A stretch of 64,000 bases of DNA from contig JANTQA010000070.1 in the NCBI GenBank assembly GCA_027625915.1, positions 749,001 to 813,000 on the forward strand, read 5' to 3'. Source of the stretch: Anaeramoeba flamelloides. Taxonomy: Eukaryota > Metamonada > Anaeramoebidae. Positions 3,794-53,690 of this stretch are shown in pieces. The notes beneath the pieces were generated by a model. It was not told where the DNA came from and searched no databases. It saw only the letters and a program-made list of their open reading frames with translations. Position 1 is the stretch's first letter. Each line of letters begins with the position of its first letter. The translations under genes were made by a program, and so were the position numbers.

Positions 3794-4559
3794 GTTTTTT
3801 TTTTTTTTTTGTAATTGAATAGAGGTTAATCAACAAAATTACCCACTTTTTTACTGTTAGAGTTTTTTTAGTCCAAAAAATAAAATGAATATTTCTGTGT
3901 TTTTTATATTGAATTTTAGAAATTAAAAAAAAAAAATCGGTCAACTTTTCAAGAATTTAAAAGAATTGATTAAAATATTACCTTTTTCTCTATTCTTTTA
4001 AATTCTAGGCACTCTACGATATATGACGGCACTCTCAAAAACTAAATTTATTTAGAGTTTACTGTCATAATTAAAAGGTAGTCAAGATGATTACTCACAA
4101 AATTACTTTTCTTTAAAAAAAATGAAAAGAAAATCTTTTAAATTTTTAAATAAAGACAAGAAAAATAGAAAGAAAAGTCAGAAATTAAATAGAGAAAAAA
4201 AAAAAAAAACTAAAATAAACCAAAAACGTCATTTATTATTTTTTTTTTGTAATCCAAATATTGAATGTGCTGTAGATCTTTTCTTTTTGTTGAAAATTTC
4301 TGTGCAACCATAATTTGTTTTAATAAAAAAGTTTAACTATATAACCAACTATTGATCAAATGTAATAAGTTTACTTTATTAAGTTATAAATAAGAACGTT
4401 ATAAATATGGTTAAATTCATAAATTTCTGAGTTTTTAAGACTAAGAATTTGTTTTAGAAATCTTCCATTTGAGTTGCTTTTTTCCTTTATTGTTATTTTT
4501 GCAAAATCCTAGTCTTGTTTCGGCAAAATCCTAGTATGATATATTTACTCGACGACATT

Positions 4560-9099: not shown

Positions 9100-9483
9100 T
9101 GTTTTTTCCAGAATTAAAAAGAATTGAGTAAATTGTTGTATTTTTCTCTATTATTTTGAATTCTGGAAAAGCGCCTATACAATTTTCTGCTTTTACGTTT
9201 ATTTGGAAAATCAATAGATTTTCGTGAGATTTTTTTGAGTTTTCAATTTATTTGTGAAGTGTTCTAGGTTTTTTTGAGTTTTCTATTTATTTCAAAAAGT
9301 AAAAAAAACCTAGAACACTTCACAAATAAAACAGAAAACCTCAAAAAAACCTAGAACACTTCACAAATAAAACAAAAAACCCAGTGAAAACGTAGGTTCT
9401 TTATGGTACTATATTATACTTTCAAAAAACTGATGATTGTAAGAGGATCTTTGATTCTCTCTTCAATCATTTTTTTTTTTATA
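9100..9483. repeat. module array: F-hairpin plus B-type inverted modules
   Basis: It starts with the F hairpin (9104-9170), whose stem pairs 'ttttccagaattaaaaagaa' with 'ttgaattctggaaaa'. A B-type inverted set follows (about 9215-9390), built from 'atttgtgaagtgttctagg' and its complement, the latter present twice in tandem. The right edge is 'taagaggatctttgat' and 'tcttcaatca' before a T tract. The same modules recur at 11830, 12355, 17730-18345, 21715-22400 and 51670-52245. Confidence 0.7.
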
Positions 9484-9664: not shown

Positions 9665-12600
9665 CTATTTTTCAAGACTTTTTTTTCTAATTTTCCTTAA
9701 TCTTACTTTTCTTACTTTTTTTTTAAAATATATTGATTTTTTATTTATAATATCATTTTTATGTTGAATTCTGATTATTTTTTTCTTTTTCCTTGGTGAA
9801 ATAATCCTTGGGCTTTTTTTTTTCATTTTATTTTGATGATTAATATTTTTATTTAATGCTTTTATTTCTATATTTTTTGTATTTTTTTCATTTTTTTTAT
9901 TTTTATTGGTATTATTATTATTATTAAGATTATTATCTTTAATATTATTATTTATCTTATTATTATTGCCATTGTCATTACCATTGCCAGTATTGTTATC
10001 ACCATCACCACCACCACCATCATTGGTATTCTCATTTTCTTTATTTTTATTTTGGTTTAAAGATTGATTATCTTTATTTAATAAATTAATATTTTTCTTT
10101 TCTGAAATTTTTTTTTTTTTTAAATTAACATTTTTTTCGTTATCATTTATAGCTTCTTTTTTATTATTATTTTCATTTTGATCAACATTCTGTTTTTGAA
10201 TTTTGCTTTCCATGATTAATGAAAGACTGGACACCCTTCTAATAGGAGATTGGAATGATCTAGAATGTAATTTATCATAAATTACTTTAGTTATTGAATA
10301 AATATTCCCAATTGCCAAAATTAAAAACAAAACACCAGTTATCGCACAAAAAATTGTTTTTGGTTCTTTAAAAAAATAATACTTGAGTAAATAAAAGCTT
10401 AAATATATTTGAAACGTGTGCGAGATGATTAAAAAAGGCAATAATACTTTGAACGAGAAAAAAAAATTGATTGTTGGGGAATCGGAATTCACGGTGTCTT
10501 CTAGATTGACGATTCCTAGTGCTCTCATTCGATAGAGTTGATTCATTTGATATAAATGTTGAAGGAATTGTGAAATGCAGCTATACACTGAAAAAACGTA
10601 ATATTGAAGCCCAAAAATTTGATCAAAGCTTTGAAAGTTCCAAAAGCAAATTGTACCAGACGTTAGAATTGAAAAATAATGATGCACAGTCCACCAAGTA
10701 TTAATATTAGACCCATTTGCCTTTAATACAGACTCTCGCATGGCCAACGAAAGATAATAGATTACAGGCAGTAGTTGATATGGAAGGATAATTAAATTAA
10801 TAACCGATTTGAAATTTAGTAAATGTAATAATAACATAAACACACTAAATCCTCCATAGAATAGCATAAAAAATTTTTTGAAATTCTCATATTCGCTTTT
10901 AACTCTAATTCGTTCAGATAAATCAGTCATATAAAAGGTTACATTGCCTACAAAAAATGAGAGAAGATTGCTATAATTTTTTTTTTTTTTTTTTTTTTTT
11001 AAATATCATTTAATAAAATAAAAAAAAAAATTAGAATTTATCATTTGAATTTAATTCAAAGATTGTTAATAAAAATTTATTCAAGTATAACTTGTGAAAA
11101 GATTTGATGATAAAATTTTTTAATGTTTTTTTTTTTATTGAAGAAGTATAAATTATACTGTAGAGGCTCTTGTACTTAAATGTATTTTCACAAATTTAAG
11201 TGTAAAATCATCTGATTTCACGATTATTAATTAATGAAAATCATCATTTAACTTACCAAAGTTTAAAATTATTTCTTAAAGTTTAATTCTTTTATTTTTT
11301 TTCTATTTTTTTGCTTGTTGAATATTTTTTCCCTTGTTGAATTTCCTTTTTATTGGGAAGAAGAGTTACTAAGGAGAAAAACCAAGTGATTACCTACTAA
11401 TACTTGAATGATAGAAACTAGTTGGTATGGGTAACTTGAAAATAAAAAGAAAAGGCAAAAACAAAAACTGGAACGATCAAAAAAGATTCGATCAAAAAGA
11501 AAAAAAATGGCAGCTACTAAAGAACTACCTCTCAACGAAGCATTCACGATTTCTTAGAAATAATTAAATGACAAAATTTTAAATAAAAGGATCGTGGTTG
11601 TTTTTTGAGTGTTCTTGATAAAAATTGACTGTTGTTTTTTTTTTTTAATTTTTTACCAACTGTCTTTGAAAAAGACTTTTTTTTGTTTTTAACTTGCTTT
11701 TTTTTTTTAATTTAATTTATTTTTCTTTTCAATTTCTTTTTGTTTTTTTAACCAATAAAAATTTGGAACTTGCTCGATTCCAAAATATTTTCTTTCTTTA
11801 TCATCTAAATTACTAATTTACCATTAGCAAGTGTCGTAGAGTGCCGTCAAGTTCCTAGCTTTTCCAAAATTCAAAAGAATTGAGTAAAATCCTTGATTTT
11901 TCTCCATTCTTTTAAATTCTGGAAAACCTAACGACAGTTTTTTTTAATTTGAGAAATAAATCGAAAATTTATTTAATTTTTGGTTTATTTCTCAAATTAA
12001 AAAAAACCTAACGGATGTAAGAGGATCTTTGATCACTTCCTTCAATCAATACAAAAAAAAAGTCTAATTCTTTTCATTTATTTAGAAATATGAATCTATC
12101 TTTGTGATAAGAAGTACATACCCATAACAAATGATCGGTATTTTCTATTATTTCCATCTGTTCATATTTTAAACAAAAATGACAAAATTTATTTGAGTTT
12201 TTTTATTTATTACATAATAATATCTATTTAAGCAGTTAGTAAAGGTTCTGAATTTTAGAATTGTTGAACTTGATGGATAACTTTAATATTGTTGATTAAT
12301 AAATAAAGTTTTAAGTTTTTTTTTATTATTTTAAAATATTTTTGAGGAGTGTAGTCAAATACCGAAGAGTGCCAAAGAGTGCCTAGGTTTTCTTGAGCTT
12401 TTCTGTTTTATTTGTGAAGTGTTCTAGGTTTTTTTTACTTTAGAAATAAACAGAAAATTTATTAAAATTTTCTGTTTATTTCTAAAGTAAAAAAAACCTA
12501 GAACACTTCACAAATAAAACAGAAAAGCTCAAGAAAACTTAAAGACACTCTCAACTCGTAGAATTCAACAACCACTTATATATTTCTTCTTCTTCTTCTT

Positions 12601-17729: not shown

Positions 17730-18345
17730 AAGTGGTATCAAGTACTATAGAGTGTAAAGTTTTTTTTATTTTGGAAATTAAAAGATAATATAAGAAATTT
17801 CCTTGATCTTCTAAAATTTAAAATAAAACTAAATAAGCTTTTCAAAAATTCAAAAGAATTGAGAAGAATATAAAGTTTTACTAAATTCCATTGAATTATA
17901 GAAAACCTAACGAAAGTGTTCGTCAAGTACCATCTTATACATTAGAGTGTTTATATTTTCTTTAATTAAAGAAATAAAAAGAAAATTTAATAATTTTTTT
18001 TTAATTTATAAAATTTAAAATAATATAAGAAAGTTTTTTCTTGAGGTTTTCTGTTTTATCTGTTAAGTGTTCTAGGTTTTTTTGAGTTTTCTATTTATTT
18101 GTGAAGTGTTCTAGGTTTTTTTTACTTTTTGAAATAAACAGAAAATTTTAATAAATTTTCCGTTTATTTCAAAAAGTCAAAAAAACCTAACGAAAATCTA
18201 TTGATTTAACAAATAAATAAAAATTAAAAAAAAAAAAAAAATGGCGTTTTTCGATTGGGATTCTAGAATTCAAAAGAATAGAGCAGAATTAAAGATTTTA
18301 CTCAATTCTTTCAAATTCTGGAAAACCCAACGATAAATGGTTGAA
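17730..18345. repeat. compound module array (F, B, A, F)
   Basis: In order: 'agtactatagagtgtaaag' entry, an F hairpin (17838-17905), a diverged half A module, B modules with 'gaagtgttctagg' twice (18040-18115), an A hairpin (18113-18189) and another F hairpin (18261-18325) ending 'gaaaacccaacg'. The array lies just downstream of the RGS-DUF547 stop codon. Confidence 0.7.
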
Positions 18346-18581: not shown

Positions 18582-21500
18582 CTAAATAATTTGTCCATAA
18601 AGAAACTTTCGAGAAAGTGTTCTTTTTAAATCTATCCAAATGATTGGTTTAATACTTTGATATTGAAGAAATTTTATTTGATGACTTTTCAATTTTAAAA
18701 ACTGGGTATGATTTAATTTTAAAAACATAGAAATCCATGTAACAATTTCATCCTCGTCGCCAAAATCTTTGTGGAATTTTTCAAACAATTTAGGGAGGAA
18801 AATCTTGTCATCCTGTATTGTAAAAAAGCTTGAAATGACTTTAAAGGTTACGTCTTCCAAGGTCTGGTTCAATTGTTTTAATCTATAAACCTTTATCAAG
18901 GTAAGGAACGAATGGCTGATTATTGAAAAATGGAATCTGACGTCAACTCTTTTTAAGGCAAATTTCGCTCTCGGGTCATCTAATTTAAAATAGTCATTAT
19001 GTTTTTTATCAAAATTGCCCCTCAAAATTCCATGGTAAATATCTAACAAGGAAAACTCAAATTTACCAATTAAATAGGCAGATTTTTTTAAGAACTTGTT
19101 AAATGAATTTATATCCCCTGGGACGCCATTGACGATAAAGCTATGCAAAGTTAGTACATTATACAAATTTAAAAAAAAACATGTCCTTTGTTGGAATGTC
19201 ATCAAGTCTAAATCAATTGCCTGCAATGCCGATGTGTGTTGTACAAACCTTCTAAACGGGATCGATTTTGAAATTGTTTTCATATTGATTGATTTTGTTG
19301 ATACAGCATAATTTGCATCCAATAAATTGATTAGATTAACCATTAATTTTTCACTAATTTCATACGAAACATATTTTTCGAAATTTGCTTGATATTCCAC
19401 ATTTAAATATTCCGTTTGATTCTTTTGATGTATTAGCTTTAATCTTTTCAAGTTTGGACGGAAACTAAAATTGGGATCGTGTTCTAATTTATTTAACAAT
19501 TTCTGATATAAAATGGATTGTTGAAAAGATTGCCATGAATTTAAATTCATGTGATCAATAACTGCCTTCTGTGCCTCATCGAACATCATAATCGAATAAC
19601 TTTTTTCTTTAAATTGATTAATTATTTTTTTTCTCATTTCAGAAATGATGTTGATTTCAAAAATGGATCCTGGCTCAATAAATGTTTTAAAAATATGTTT
19701 TGAAGTTTTGATAAGTTGCTATTTTTTATTTTTTTTTTTATTTTTTTTTTATTTTTTATTAATTTTTTTATTTGTTAATATTGATAACATATCAAGAATA
19801 ATTTAATTAATTATTAATATACAGCAGCAAACCAAAAATTAGTAAATTTCAATTTTGGATTTAATATTTATTTTTCTTATTAATTATCCAAATATGAACA
19901 TTTAAGGAATAAATTTTATTTTAAAAGGTTAAAAAAGAAATAATAAACGATGAATAAGTAAAAAAAAAAAATAATTACAAAAATGAAAAAATAATTGACT
20001 TATGAATTGTGAAAGAATTTACACTGATAATTTTCAAAACAACAAATATGAAATAGTTTATTCCCTTTATACAAGGATTAAAATTGTGAATATAAGGTAT
20101 TTCCGAAAAAGTGTGGCATTTTTTTTTTACATTTCATAAAAAATCATCTTTTTCAGTGGTGATATTCGTTAATAGACAATAACAAATTAAGTTAAATATT
20201 AATACTGATTGGATCAATAACTATGATATTTATTTCAAAATATGTTCTTTGAAATAATTCTCAAGAATTAAAAAAAAAAATAGCACTTTTTTTGGAAAAA
20301 AGAATGTAGAACCAATTTCAATAAAAAACCGGAATTATGATAAGGGTGCAAATTATTTTTTAAATTAATAAAATACAGTTATATATTTTTCATTCTATTG
20401 GATAATTTATTGAGATTTAAGAAGTTATTAAAACGATTTTTTCGATCAAAAAGAAAATAATAAACACCAATTTTCACCCCTGAAAAAAATATCAGATAAA
20501 ATCGAGATCATAAAATTTAATATTTTTTATTTATCTAATAACATACTAACAAAGAAATTGAATTATTATTAAGAATCAATGAATGGGGTTTAATGATTTT
20601 TTATATATAATGAGTTTTATTGGCGATTACGTTTAATAAAGCTATATTTAAAATAAATCTTCCCCATTTTTTTTGGAAATAGTTCATGTTTAAATTTAAA
20701 CTAGAGAAAACTATTCAATTGTTATGCTTAAATTGCTTAACTGTTGTGAAACAAAAGTGAAAACTGAAAAAAAAAGTTTGATTTTTTTTTTTTTTGAATT
20801 TTAAAAATTTTATTGAAAACATTACTGAAACTGATCAATTTCGCATTTTTTTTTCTTTTGAAGATAATAAGAATCCAAATAGTGATTAAAACCTTATAAG
20901 AAGTATAATATCTCATATTAGATTTTCTTAATTTTGGCTTGATCAAGTGGATTGTCTTAAAAATCAAATACTTTATTTTTGATTGGAAAATATAAACAAA
21001 AATGAGTAAAAAGTGAATTTTTGATTTTTTATACTTTTTACTTTTTCCAAATTTCCCTTTTTATGTTTTTTGAGTTACTTAGGTTACTTAGGTTACTTAG
21101 GTTCCTTATGTCCCCCCTCTTTTTGTTTTTTAGGAGTTTGGGGATAAAGTAAAAGGAATAATAAATCATTATAAGAATTTATAGACTTGTTAACGATTAG
21201 ATTTTAAACTAATTTGATCAGATCTTCGACAAATAAAACTGGGTTGGTGTAACTGAATAAACTGAATCCAACAAATGCAAAGAAAATTTCGAAAAAAAAT
21301 TCTTATTCTTAAAAAACAGAACTTTATTGATTTAACCCAGATCTAAAGTTCTAAATTAAAACTTAATAAATTAACCTATTTCATTTGATCTATAGTTGTT
21401 CGAATATTTAGATCTCTTTATTAAAACAAATTATGACGATCCAAAAAAAAATTGACATTAAAGGAAACGATTAACAACCTATTCAACATAAGGGGTGCGA

Positions 21501-24500
21501 AAAAATTTTTTAAATCAAGTTTTTACTTTTTTTTATTATATTTTTACTCTTTCATTTCTTGCTTTTCTTAATCTTCTTTTTTCTTATCTTTGTTTAGAAA
21601 TAATTTTTTTCTTTTTATTTTTTAAAGAAAAGATGTCATTTGAGTTATAATCTTTCCTACTTTATATCGAGGATAAAAAAACTCTCTTAATAAATTTATA
21701 TAGTTTCTGAAAATTCTGTCAAGTGCCGTAAAGTGTCGTAGAGTACCTAGGTTTTTTTTTAATATTCGAAATGAAAAGAAAATTAAACAAATTTTCTTTA
21801 CATTTCGAAAAGTCAAAAAAACCTAAAGGTACTTTTCCAGGATTCAAAAGAATAGAGAAGAATCTATGTTTTTACTAAATTCTTTTAATATATAAAAAAC
21901 CTAACGAAAAGTGTCCGTAGAGTGACGTAGAGTGCCTAGGTTTTCCAGAATTCAAAAGAATAGAGTAAAATCGAGGATTTAACTCAATTCTTATAAATTA
22001 TGGAAAACCTAACGGCGGTTTTCTTGAGGTTTTCTGTTTTATTTGTTAAATCTATCGATTTTCGTTAGGTTTTTTTTACTTTTTGAAATAAACCGAAAAT
22101 TTAATAAAATTTTCTGTTTATTTCAAAAAGTAAAAAAAAACCCAGAACACTTCCAAATAAACAGAAAACTCAAGAAAACCTAACGGAGCTTTTCCAGAAT
22201 CCAAAAGAAGAGAGAAAAATTAAATTTTTTTTAATATTTTTTTTAAATTCTGGAAAAGATAAGGAAAAGTGCCGAGGTTTTTTTTAATTTAAGAAATAAA
22301 GCGAAAATTAAATAAATTTTCGGTTTGTTTCTTGAATTAAAAAAACCTAAGTGCAAAAAGGAGATAATTTTGTTAAATCTCCTTTCTTCAATAAGAAAAA
22401 AAAAAAATAAATAAAAAGTAAATTTTTCAGGGAAATTCATATCTGTAAATTATGACTTTTGAAAATATCCTTAATATTTAATCATAATTATTTTGTAAAC
22501 ACTTGGGAAAAACTCGATTCTTATGAAGATAAACAAATTGTGAAAATGATCAATTTTGGAATTTGCCATTTTTAATCGAAATCTTATTTAATAAATTTAT
22601 TTTTTAAAAAATTTCATTAAATAACGAGGTTAAGGATGAAAGACCTGAAAGAATCGAAATAAAATTATAGGAACTAAACCCATAAATCACTTATTTTTAA
22701 AATAATGTTTAAAATGAAAGTGATAAAAAATTGTGATTATTCTTCATTTTCAGGTTCAACTAAGAATTAATATTACTGTAATTTTTCAATTAATAATAAA
22801 TGAAATTATTTGTTTCAAATTCCCAAATATTTTGTTGATTTTTTGTTGAAAAAATGCAAGATCTTCTCAAAATCATTTGAAAAGTAAAAATTTTAAGAGA
22901 TTTAATTTATCTCTTCCTTGTTGAATTTTTGAGACAAAATTTAATTTTTTTGATTTTTGGCAATAACAATACACAAGCAGAAACATGATTTCTCAATTTT
23001 TAGAGTTTTTTTTTTTGATAAAAATTGAAATTTAGAAAAAACCACTAATGTAATATCCTGTGTTAAGATTTTGATAAAAAACTTCAATTAAGAACGGATA
23101 TTTTGTGTGAGTTTCGTCAGAATTAATGAAAGAATCACTCTGACAAAACATATTTTAAATATCATTTTTATTATGTTTTTCAAAATCTATTTTTTACTCG
23201 GGCATAGTTATTCTTTAATTAAAACTGATGAGACTCACTCAAACGATCCGTTTTTAAGGAATACGTTTTCACCCTGGAGAGTGTTAAGTTAATGGGTTAT
23301 TTTACATTCAGTTTTCAAAAAGAATTTTTATCCTGAAGAAATTGGACAAAAAATATACAAATTTCAAAGCTTAAAAACACTACAAAAAATTAAAAAAATT
23401 TATAAATTTCATCAGATTCAAGTAATGAATTTTTTAAGAAAAAATGATTTGAAGGGAATTTAAAGTAAAAGATCAAATTTTGAAACATTTCAAACTTGTA
23501 AAAGCAAATGTAAAAAAATATTTAGAACAGTTTGAGAAGTGTTTTATGTGTATTGATTTGAAATAGAAATTATGAAATGTTTAAAATCAAATTTTGAGCT
23601 GATCTAAGAAAGGGATGAAATTGTGAAAATTATGAAAATTTCCTATTTTTTTTTATAAAAGAAATTCTTGGTTAGTAAATGTGACTGATGAAATAGAGTT
23701 CTATCAAGAGTGTTTTTATCAACAATTTCACTGTTTTCATCTGAAAATGTGGCCCTTAATTGAATTTTTTTATCGTGCTTTACAGGCGATAATACAAAAG
23801 TGGTTTCTTCTAAATTTCAATTTTAAAAAAAAAAAAACTCTAAAAATGTCCTATACATACAAATTCACCTTGATCTGAGAACTTTTAGTTTTTTCTTATT
23901 CATTTATTTTTGGATTCTTTATCGACCCTTTATTATTATGTTTTTTGACAAAAACTACTTTAAGTTTAAAATACTTTTAATGACTGTGTCTCGTTCTAGA
24001 CACTTTTTGAATTCGAATTAACAAATGAAGTCACTTCAAAATTCTCTCATTTACCAGACTGAGTGTTGTTTTAACATTTAAAGATTATCTAAAATAAAGA
24101 CACCATGAGCGGTGTCTAGTTCAAAGCATTGCTGAAATATAACCTTTGCCTCTTTAGATACAGAAGAACTAATAAAATTTGGAATTTTTTAGGAATTTAA
24201 AAAATTTTACTGATTATATTTACAATTGAAAGTTGGTACTGAAAACCATAACCAAACCCTTTTTTGATATAACTCGGGTTTTTAAAAGGTTTTTTATGGA
24301 AACTAGATAATAATTTCCTTAGAACAAAAAGGGTTTGGTTATGGTTTTCAGTACCAACTTTCAATTGTAAATATAATCAGTAAAATTTTTTAAATTCCTA
24401 AAAAATTCCAAATTTTATTAGTCCTTCAAGATCTCCAGAGATAAAGGTCATATTACCAGATTTTTTTGAACCATACCCCCCTAATAATGGTGTCTTTATT

Positions 24501-29569: not shown

Positions 29570-29700
29570 AAGTGGCGTAATGGGTTTAATTGTATCCTTG
29601 TGTAAATAACCACTCGATTCTTTTAAATTAAAAAAAAAACCTAACAACAAATAAGAGGAAATTTAAACTCCTCCCTCAAATTACAATAAAAAAAAAATTA
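29570..29700 (+). repeat. short module-family copy with A-tailed 3' hairpin
   Basis: Contains 'attcttttaaatt', the junction 'aaaacctaac', then 'aagaggaaatttaaactcct' and 'ccctcaaatta' followed by an A run. The end organisation equals those near 9440, 12020 and 22360, so this looks like a minimal member of the array family. Confidence 0.5.
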
Positions 29701-30483: not shown

Positions 30484-31824
30484 TTAACATTTTTTATGTA
30501 CTATTGCTGCCCCGGATTCGTTGTATTCTTTTTTTAGTATCCACCTATCTTCGAAAGTGGAGAGGGAGGTAAGGATGGATGCCCCAATCCAAGCTGCGTA
30601 TTTTCTTTCTTCTGAGGAAGCAACTTTTACAGATACTGTATTTGGTGCAAGTTTCTGGATTTCCTGTTGTAGTCGCTCTTTCATTCCATCAAACAGGGTT
30701 GATCCCCCAGATAAAATGATATTGTGGTAAAGTGTTTCTTGGAAGTCTACATGGCTTTCGTTTATTGTGTTGTAAACAATTTCATGGATTCCATCCATTT
30801 TGGTATCAAGGGGCGAAGGTTGGAAAAGAACCTCTGGGCATCTGAATCTTTCGTCACCGATGGTGATCACTTGTCCATCGGGGAGTTCATAGTTCATATC
30901 AACCTCTGATGACGACTGAGAGGCAAGGATCATTTCTTGATCAAAGTCAAGAGCAACATAACATAATTTTTCTTTGATGTCTCTGACAATTTCTCTCTCG
31001 GCAGTCGTGGTAAAGGAGTATCCTCTTTCGGCAAGGATTTTTAACAAGTAGTCTGTCAAATCGTTTCCCGCCAGTTCCTGTTGTGCTCTTACTTCCTGTA
31101 TTATGTTTCCCTCCATAAAGGCGTCGATCGTTGTAAAACTATGTCCGATATCAAGAACAACCCCTGTGGTTCTGCCATACGTATGAAGTGAAAGAGGCTC
31201 TGGAAGCGAGAAATGGAACGCTGGTATATTAAATTTTTCAAACATGATTTCAGTCATTTTCTCTGGATAAGATTTTTGTGTTGAATCATATTTCAATGTC
31301 AAAAAGATTTCATGTTCCTCAGCATCGACACCCAATTCTTCCTTAAACGTGTATCCCCAGATCCTTTCCATATCGCCCCAATCTGAAACCATACCGTTTA
31401 CAAGTGTTCTCTTTAAATTATAAAGCCCTCTTTTTGATCGTGGTTCTTTTCCAACATAGCAATCCTTTTGCCCCATGCCCACCATTACACCCATGTGTTT
31501 TGGCTTTTGGACAATAGACGGGAAAACAGCAATTGGCGCGCTGTCTCCAGAATAGCCCACTTTTAACATTCCTGATCCATGATCAATAATTATTGCTATT
31601 AATTTTTTTGAAAAGTGATCATATAAAAAGAGATTAGGCTTGTTGTTACCTTTCAGAAATCATGAAAAAAATTAGCTTTACAAACCTGAGCTTTTTTTAG
31701 GCTCAATTTCATTTGTTTCTTCTTTTTCCATTTTTCTATTTTGGTTTTCTTTAGGCTTTTCACTTTTCTCATTTTTATTTGTTTGTGTGTTTTTTTTTTT
31801 TTTGTTTGTTATTTTTCGCCACAT
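30484..31824 (-). CDS. divergent actin lacking ATPase residues, 2 exons
   Basis: Proposed join: exon 1 31824-31686 and exon 2 31595-30484, 416 residues, with a 90-bp intron (GTTTGT..AATAG, phase 1). Exon 2 is actin from 'AIIIDHGSGM' to the C-terminal 'GAAIVHKKC', without the final Phe. Many stretches are near-identical to conventional actin ('GVMVGMGQKD', 'YGRTTGVVLD', 'LSGGSTLFDGM'). Counterparts of Gln137 and His161, which position the attacking water, are Pro and Thr; Asp157 is His and Gly158 Ser in the second phosphate loop ('LDIGHSF'). Asp11, Lys18 and Asp154 counterparts are kept, so nucleotide binding may persist without normal hydrolysis. The site of His73 is Asn. Exon 1 adds a charged 46-residue N-terminal extension; an inner in-frame ATG would shorten it to about 16. 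The coding sequence is clearly richer in GC than its surroundings. It is probably an actin paralogue with a specialised role rather than the main cytoskeletal actin. Confidence 0.9.
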
Positions 31825-51669: not shown

Positions 51670-52245
51670 CAAGTGTTGAAGAGTTGTTTGTTTTTTATAA
51701 GATATAATTTTTAAATTTGTTCAATTTTCTAATTAATTCATAAAAATACAAAAAATCTAGATGAGTTTTTTATATTTTAGAAAATAATGGAACTTTAAAG
51801 AAAATTTCTTTTAATTTCTAATACTAAAAAAAAAAAAAACAATAAAAATTTGATAAAAATAAAAAGAATAGAGAAAAATAAAATATTTGACTCAATTCTT
51901 TTAAATTACGGAAAATATAAAAGTGTGTTTCTTATGATTTTCTTTTTTATCTGTAAAATGTTCTCTCTTGTCATTGTTTTTTTTTTTTTAATTTTAGAAA
52001 TCAAAAGAAAATTTTTGAAATTTTCTACAAATTTCAGAAAGTCTAACGAAAATGAAAGGTTATCCGTTTTACAGAATTCAAGAGAATTGAACAAAATCTC
52101 TTTAATTTTATTCCCATCTTTTGAATTATGGAAAACTTGGGGTCAATACTGTCAAGTGTCTACGTTTTCCTGAATTTAAAAAATTAGATACAATCAAAGA
52201 TATTACTCAATTATTTTAAATTTTAAGAAATCTAATGGCATTCTC
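51670..52245. repeat. module array, decayed
   Basis: Contains a diverged A hairpin (about 51968-52045) and two F hairpins (52067-52136 and 52163-52232) with 'gtctaacgaaaatg' and 'aaatctaatgg' junctions; the part before 51960 is too diverged to parse. It occupies the same place in the LINE-like repeat as the 12355-12550 array. Confidence 0.55.
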
Positions 52246-52879: not shown

Positions 52880-53690
52880 TATGTCTCATATGATTTTTTA
52901 CAATTATAAACTATATGTAAAATTTTCTCTAAATATTCTTTCAATATTTACTTTTTTAAAAATTCTTTCGAAACAACTATTTTGATCTTTATTAGTTTTT
53001 TGTCCAAATTAAATAATATTTTTATAATTTGAATTTAATTTTTGATCTTTAGTAATTTTTAATTTCCTTTTAATAATTCGGATTGAGCCATCTACATACA
53101 TTTAACAATGATTTGTTAATGATATAATTTTTAATGAAAGAAAATGTGAAATAAGAGCAAATATAATTGGTGACAGAGGATATCATTGGGATATATCAAG
53201 CCCTCTTCATTAATAATACATTGATAAATATTTTTTTTAATAATTTTATAAATAAAAAATTTTTTAATTGTTTTTCTAATTATTTTAAAACTAATCGAAT
53301 CAAAAAATTTTGCTATATCAATCGGTATAATATCTGTTCCACCGTTTTCCTTTTCATAATGTGATTAGATATCATTATAAATATTTAAGAAGTTTAGACT
53401 GCAAAAAGAGTATCCAGATTTTATTCTAAAAACCAAATAGAAATTTATGAATAAATTCCCTATAATGATCAATTAGTTTACATAACATTTTTAAAAATAA
53501 TCTTGGTAAACTTTGATTAATTGAAATAGTTCTATAATTCAAAGCTACCTCTTCATTTCCTTTTTTATGGATAGATAAAATTGATCTTTTTTTAATATCT
53601 TCATTATTATTCTTATTAGGGTTAATCAACCAATTATTAAATATATTCTGAATTGTAATAAAGATATTTTTTATCATTTAGATTTTCAAT
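52880..53690 (-). mobile_element. decayed LINE (non-LTR) reverse-transcriptase fragment
   Basis: Read on the minus strand, pieces of a non-LTR reverse transcriptase appear in the right order. First comes 'SIHKKGNEEVALNYRTISI', equivalent to the LINE 'PIFKKGD..NYRPIS' block, then 'HKFLFGF', equivalent to 'HQFGFR'. Motif A follows as 'PIDIAKFFDSI' (expected D..AFD), then 'LYLLLFHIFF', equivalent to 'SPLLFNIFI', and a possible catalytic box 'MYVDG' in place of 'YADD'. Stops after 'FLFGF' and a frame change before motif A break it, and no endonuclease or 5' part is seen. It is an old, 5'-truncated copy immediately 3' of the Furry-like gene. Confidence 0.75.

Follow-up and report, generated by a model that had tools for sequence, protein, structure and literature searches.

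The window analysed here, a 64,000-nucleotide stretch of contig JANTQA010000070.1, comes from a 254-Mb genome in 76 contigs (Anaeramoeba flamelloides) and varies in G+C content from 18 to 37% along its length. It contains ordinary eukaryotic genes in the standard code: an actin-family gene with a putative GT-AG intron of about 36 nt (31650-31685, minus strand), genes for Dus, NUDIX and RRM proteins, and a single ORF that fuses a partial RGS domain with DUF547 (18585-19718, minus strand). Neither Rfam at its gathering threshold nor a tRNA scan returned a match in the window. Retroelement remnants include a degraded LINE reverse-transcriptase fragment at 53161-53548 (minus strand) and, at 29648-29695, a copy of a LINE 3' tail that is 96% like the tail in locus L028.

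The window also carries arrays of short hairpins (Table 1). Their building blocks are the hairpins A, F and B, a leader of units of about 10 bp that ends in AGTGCCTAGG, and a tail, CCTAACG. The locus at 21.7-22.4 kb is a copy of the dispersed repeat R4 with an array placed ahead of a LINE-like 3' hairpin and A-tail. The predicted fold of 21722-22349 reaches -213 kcal/mol, compared with -112 (sd 6.7) in 20 shuffles (z -15.2); one other 628-nt stretch nearby, 20900-21527, gave a z of -0.34. All five places named in a preliminary description of this DNA exist, and the degenerate F in the first row of Table 1 is additional.

Table 1. Hairpin arrays, their parts and adjoining repeats in the window.
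Feature	Position	Strand	Basis
Degenerate F, adjoining an R4-like stretch on the minus strand	3946..4009	-	sequence match, nhmmer
Array F, A, B; no host repeat recognised	9104..9396	-	module search, script reading
Array L-F-A at the 3' end of repeat R7	11850..12010	+	R7 flank common to L070 and L077; plus strand from the leader at 11830-11857, against minus by script
LINE-like 3' hairpin and A-tail after the R7 array	12012-12060	+	sequence
LINE C-terminal fragment (zinc-finger part)	12047..12294	-	tblastn
Array L-B(A)-B, inserted antisense at LINE site 1	12368..12543	+	flank, reverse complement GACTACACTCCTCAAAAATATTT, shared with site 1 of L026
Array A-F ... B(A)-F; no host repeat recognised	17759..18331	+	module search, script reading
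R4 dispersed repeat, 3' part carrying the array	21450..21721	+	72-78% similar to flanks in L045, L005 and L075
Leader (AGTGCCGTAAAGTGTCGTAGAGTACCTAGG) of ~10-bp units	21722..21752	+	sequence; repeated at 21915-21944
A hairpin 1	21751..21823	+	nhmmer, fold
F hairpin 1 (degenerate)	21833..21901	+	nhmmer
Second leader	21915..21944	+	repeat of first leader
F hairpin 2	21940..22009	+	nhmmer, fold
B hairpin centred on A (22068-22141); left arm of AAATCTATCGATTTTC type, right arm of GAACACTTC type	22017..22184	+	sequence, module search, script reading, fold
F hairpin 3 (loop side degenerate)	22190..22257	+	nhmmer
A hairpin 3, end CCTAAG	22276..22347	+	nhmmer
LINE-like 3' hairpin (AAAAAGGAGAT..ATCTCCTTT) and A-rich tail	22349..22405	+	sequence; resembles L044 tail
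Degenerate array, antisense, probably in LINE site 1	51765..52235	+	left flank matches L003 LINE DNA, minus strand

The arrays are abundant and variable. In the window and 44 loci nhmmer recovered 76 F modules and 71 A modules, with 68 of either kind full-length, a count that leaves out L001, the window's own copy. Script reading yielded 55 distinct module strings among 105 arrays or array pieces, many of which end at a locus boundary. The three modules occur in variable order and number, as the preliminary description had proposed; one fixed consensus with deletions was not seen. The description was also right about the CCTAGG / CCTAACG junction that the modules share, and about the nesting of A in B: by eye, B palindromes have A at their very centre (GTTC^GAAC, TTTC^GAAA), and high-copy short palindromes do lie inside one another here. 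F stems keep conserved mismatches, C.A and A.A. The leader AGTGCCGTAGAGTGCCTAGGTTTT has 5,260 matches in the genome at up to three mismatches, its reversed control none, and module matches were found in 11 of 20 10-kb places taken at set steps on five contigs, some of them single degenerate modules only. Arrays lie on a 15-Mb contig whose genes are of nuclear type, as well as on many others, and not in an organellar setting.

The claim that the stem arms co-vary holds for A and hardly for F. In A, 89.6% of cells are paired, with 121 double changes compared with 51.7 in shuffles, and none of 500 shuffles reached any of the five measures, although this co-variation is inflated by relatedness and rests partly on subfamilies; a separate arm-shuffle count put 2040 of 2289 cells in pairs, where shuffles gave 1928 (sd 11). 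In F, 88.5% of cells are paired against 88.1% in shuffles, the covariation score equals that of the shuffles, and shuffles were as high on the five measures in 19, 71, 29, 79 and 221 of 500 cases, the first of these being the paired fraction; the separate count gave 1816 of 2049 cells against 1801 (sd 5.5). Co-variation was counted on preset named structures because RNAalifold, run on A1 and A2, predicted no pairs. Since A co-varies and F hardly does, the arms of A appear to be renewed together, as hairpin copying would do, and those of F to decay singly.

What the preliminary description missed is that the arrays are for the most part inserted at a handful of precise retroelement sites that also exist empty. 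In L026 four arrays lie within one LINE ORF: after SPSWK (site 1), before RYLKWKGST (site 2), between W/N and CPAY of the zinc finger (site 3), and five codons ahead of the stop (site 4). Ten copies were read at site 1 (L003, L004, L016, L026, L036, L043, L047, L050, L055 and the window at 12.37 kb), and each has its array in antisense; the arrays at sites 2-4 are sense in the copies read. When the L026 flanks were used as a query with two arrays taken out, nearly all of its 417 bases were matched at 94-97% in each of 40 scored LINE copies, the best 40 of 3,562 first-look candidates; alignment with three of the 40 shows empty sites, and one, L029, has an array of one A module at site 2. The flanks of sites 2 and 3 fit together seamlessly as the empty site, with no target duplication. 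At site 1 one extra base and altered flank bases are common to all filled copies read, and at site 4 one G can be assigned to either side. Most filled sites seen are occupied by whole arrays rather than single units.

Both states coexist in the genome. Site 3 was counted 743 times empty (at most two mismatches), with 134 filled right ends (at most two) and 192 filled left ends (at most three); site 1 was found filled 321 times and empty 626 times, and site 2 empty 339 times. All controls gave zero, and since the patterns fit mainly two LINE families these counts are not genome totals. Sites 2 to 4 are in use across LINE families that differ by as much as about 45% (L059). The left junction at site 3 reads GTGATCG in four of four fam1-type copies and in none of three fam3 copies, none of the seven having been chosen for site 3. 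The carrier's enzymes were read in a relative, L085, which has an intact 972-aa ORF with all array sites empty, a reverse transcriptase (RVT_1, 6.8e-31) and a probable APE-like endonuclease (Exo_endo_phos, 3.4e-4, below the curated cut-off). LINE-frame stops interrupt 17 of 18 readable site-3 arrays (25 loci were tried, seven of them without a readable left junction), and in the sole stop-free array, in L042, the script had placed the end too early. These stops rule out translation through the arrays.

The LINE ORF is not the only place where arrays recur. Twenty zero-mismatch leaders were hand-picked from the matches listed, all on contigs C1 to C17, and for 14 of them the outer flank is a recurrent dispersed repeat (LINE site 4 three times, sites 2 and 3 once each, R5 five times, R4 and R7 twice each). 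The other six are preceded by other modules; four (L074, L076, L079, L080) have no usable outer edge in view, so that 14 of 16 visible outer edges lie at recurrent places. The edge in L082 borders DNA without a match among the loci compared and that in L083 another dispersed repeat; in both the array is cut inside a module, as in truncated copies, and they may be new insertion places. By eye, a LINE-like 3' hairpin with an A-tail comes after the array in R4 and R7. One empty copy of R5 was seen, in L018. A separate repeat (AAGGCACAAA / TTTGTGCCTTAA) occurs in both orientations in L018 and L010 and adjoins arrays in L018. The LINE in L037 carries a further insert at about 920-1050 of the minus-strand view, with inverted ends (CAGCTGTTTTAGAAAAGTGTG .. 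CACTTTTTTAAAACAGCTA) and unrelated to A, F and B.

At sites 2 and 3 the content of the arrays reassorts against LINE lineage. At site 3 the distance between terminal F modules shows little relation to LINE distance (Mantel r 0.135, p 0.22) in 14 of 22 copies tried, one having been dropped with no junction in view and seven with no pattern-recognised terminal F; the selection of 12 of the 14 used the LINE flank together with a few bases of the array end, L026 was part of the stepped sample, and L040 was reached by way of its site-2 array. The LINEs of L026 and L055 are 24% apart and their terminal F modules 1%, whereas the LINEs of L026 and L050 are 2% apart and their terminal F modules 19%. 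At site 2 the test gave r 0.06 (p 0.36) for 11 copies chosen through a site-2 array, a set that is biased towards like arrays and whose member L006 ends in A rather than F; here the LINEs of L026 and L038 are 30% apart and their F modules 1%. On the Mantel tests and the discordant pairs, the idea that array content at these two sites was inherited vertically along with its LINE is rejected.

Filled sites also occur together. Of 15 copies with a filled site 3, 8 also have site 1 filled, compared with none of 31 with an empty site 3; leaving out five hand-added rows gives 6 of 13 against 0 of 31 (p 0.0002). This comparison used 32 zero-mismatch filled and the first 100 listed empty rows for site 3, of which 17 and 69, respectively, gave no site-1 state, and 41 zero-mismatch filled, the first 100 listed empty and the five one-mismatch hand-added rows for site 1. 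By eye, two loci hold fused arrays that have lost the intervening piece of the ORF, running from a site-2 start to a site-3 end in L056 and from site 3 to site 4 in L042, and the site-2 A modules of L041 and L050 are chimaeric, beginning as the site-3 type. F modules keep to their own LINE site (22.9 of 34 nearest neighbours compared with 12.0 when shuffled, p 0.0005, in a test biased towards site 2 by the choice of loci); A modules are not site-bound (13.5 of 40 compared with 11.9, p 0.33).

The arrays thus sit mostly at a few exact retrotransposon positions, and many copies are cleanly without them; therefore they look like tiny passengers. We lean, without great assurance, towards the explanation that they are non-coding hairpin passengers of retroelements, copied by their hosts and reshuffled by template switching or gene conversion. 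A small unit consisting of a leader (AGTGCC..CCTAGG), one palindrome and the tail CCTAACG would have entered a handful of exact positions, four at the ORF end in a group of LINEs, one near the 3' end of R4 and R7, and one in R5. Later copying would have proceeded mainly through the hosts' retrotransposition, leaving filled and empty versions of each site to coexist. Content would be swapped between copies and between LINE families when the reverse transcriptase switches templates at hairpins, or by gene conversion, and the same exchange step would reshuffle, duplicate and nest the modules. Judging from the sequences, reverse transcription may be the step at which exchange occurs, and filled copies would be moved in trans by intact LINEs. 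Several observations count against passengers of this kind: junctions at sites 1 and 3 are common to families 20-25% apart, a pattern that repeated site-specific insertion would produce as well; F modules stay with their own LINE site beyond chance; the outer array edges of L082 and L083 lie away from the recurrent sites; and the window arrays at 9.1 and 17.8 kb have no recognised host. The preliminary description had offered two origins and is partly borne out overall. Palindromic elements inserting into each other would account for A in B, but not for the fixed LINE sites, and growth by hairpin-mediated duplication fits the turnover of modules and the chimaeric modules of L041 and L050.

It is doubtful, though to be taken seriously, that the arrays instead move actively as site-specific elements, homing seamlessly into retroelement targets that are conserved and refilling the same site across families, by a single-strand route that is REP/IS200-like or by an RNA-guided one. 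Seamless junctions without duplication, the use of sites 2-4 in strongly diverged families, near-identical F modules with sharp ends in LINEs 24-30% apart, the exact centring of A in B and the conserved mismatches of F would all be expected. However, no enzyme candidate was seen in a survey short of a genome-wide search, the visible outer edges cluster at recurrent places, filled sites co-occur on the same copies, and the left junction bases at site 3 vary by LINE group. The fuller form of this idea we consider unlikely: a protein-less hairpin element of the nucleus, RNA- or single-strand-guided and unlike group I or II introns, inteins and MITEs, that homes seamlessly and site-specifically into the retrotransposon genes of diverged LINE families and grows nested arrays in place.

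The remaining explanations are much less probable. If the arrays were functional parts of the LINE RNA, with their structure under selection and lost in young empty families, the strong co-variation of the A stem and the thousands of structured copies would make sense; yet sites 3 and 4 stand empty in the most alike LINE copies, the best 40 of 3,562, compensation in F is slight, the arrays bring stops into the ORF, and their order varies, which makes this very improbable. Nested MITEs, that is, cut-and-paste DNA transposons with inverted repeats, would share the inverted-repeat modules, the nesting and ends of the form GTCGT...ACGAC, but sites 2 and 3 lack the target duplication that defines them, insertion mostly falls on the same few sites, and most sites seen hold whole arrays rather than single units; an origin of this kind is, to our judgement, highly improbable. 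Least credible are spliceosomal introner-like elements, symmetrical introns inserted seamlessly in LINE ORFs and removed from the mRNA. They too are seamless (as are sites 2 and 3), symmetrical (as is the fold) and nested, fam1 sites 2-4 have CTAAC with an AG 8-10 nt further on, and the intron proposed for the host's actin-family gene is GT-AG. However, the array at site 1 is antisense wherever read, a GT-AG excision at site 3 would take the CPA out of the zinc finger, site 3 of L061 has no acceptor AG nearby, and by inspection the phase varies from site 2 to site 3 and from one family to another. By inspection, orientation, phase and acceptor speak against spliced introns, and removal would not restore the frame.

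Clean empty and filled pairs at several positions of one ORF allow the gain, loss and exchange of palindromes to be counted in hundreds to thousands of copies. If exchange occurs by template switching, then the LINEs of this genome recombine far more than is generally supposed of non-LTR elements; if homing were true, it would be a new mode of mobility. We know of no LINE with internal hairpin arrays, and a literature search that covered few subscription journals turned up no account of arrays like these within LINE ORFs.

The carriers themselves are non-LTR retrotransposons (LINEs), with a reverse transcriptase and, in the relative L085, the APE-like endonuclease. Among small palindromes, the bacterial REP elements resemble the arrays in being small, clustered and tagged at one end; unlike the arrays, and to the extent that the portion of PMC3733652 used here describes them, they are bacterial and mostly intergenic, and some are linked to RAYT transposases. 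The nearest known kinds are the nested organellar palindromes of Volvox and symmetrical introner-like elements. The organelle genomes of Volvox carteri contain short AT-rich palindromes, with hairpins within hairpins and mutual insertion, in runs whose composition varies (PMC2670323, in part). Those palindromes are described there from organellar non-coding DNA and introns, whereas the arrays lie on nuclear-type contigs, possess leader and tail modules, and occupy exact sites in LINE ORFs with empty counterparts. Fungal introner-like elements and symmetrical stwintrons (PMC8469720), and introners (PMC9860276), are likewise symmetrical, nested, potentially hairpin-forming as RNA and seamless without duplication, as far as the sections of these accounts drawn on here go; they are, however, spliced introns of host genes, whereas the arrays lie antisense or out of frame in retroelements and appear to carry no sign of splicing.
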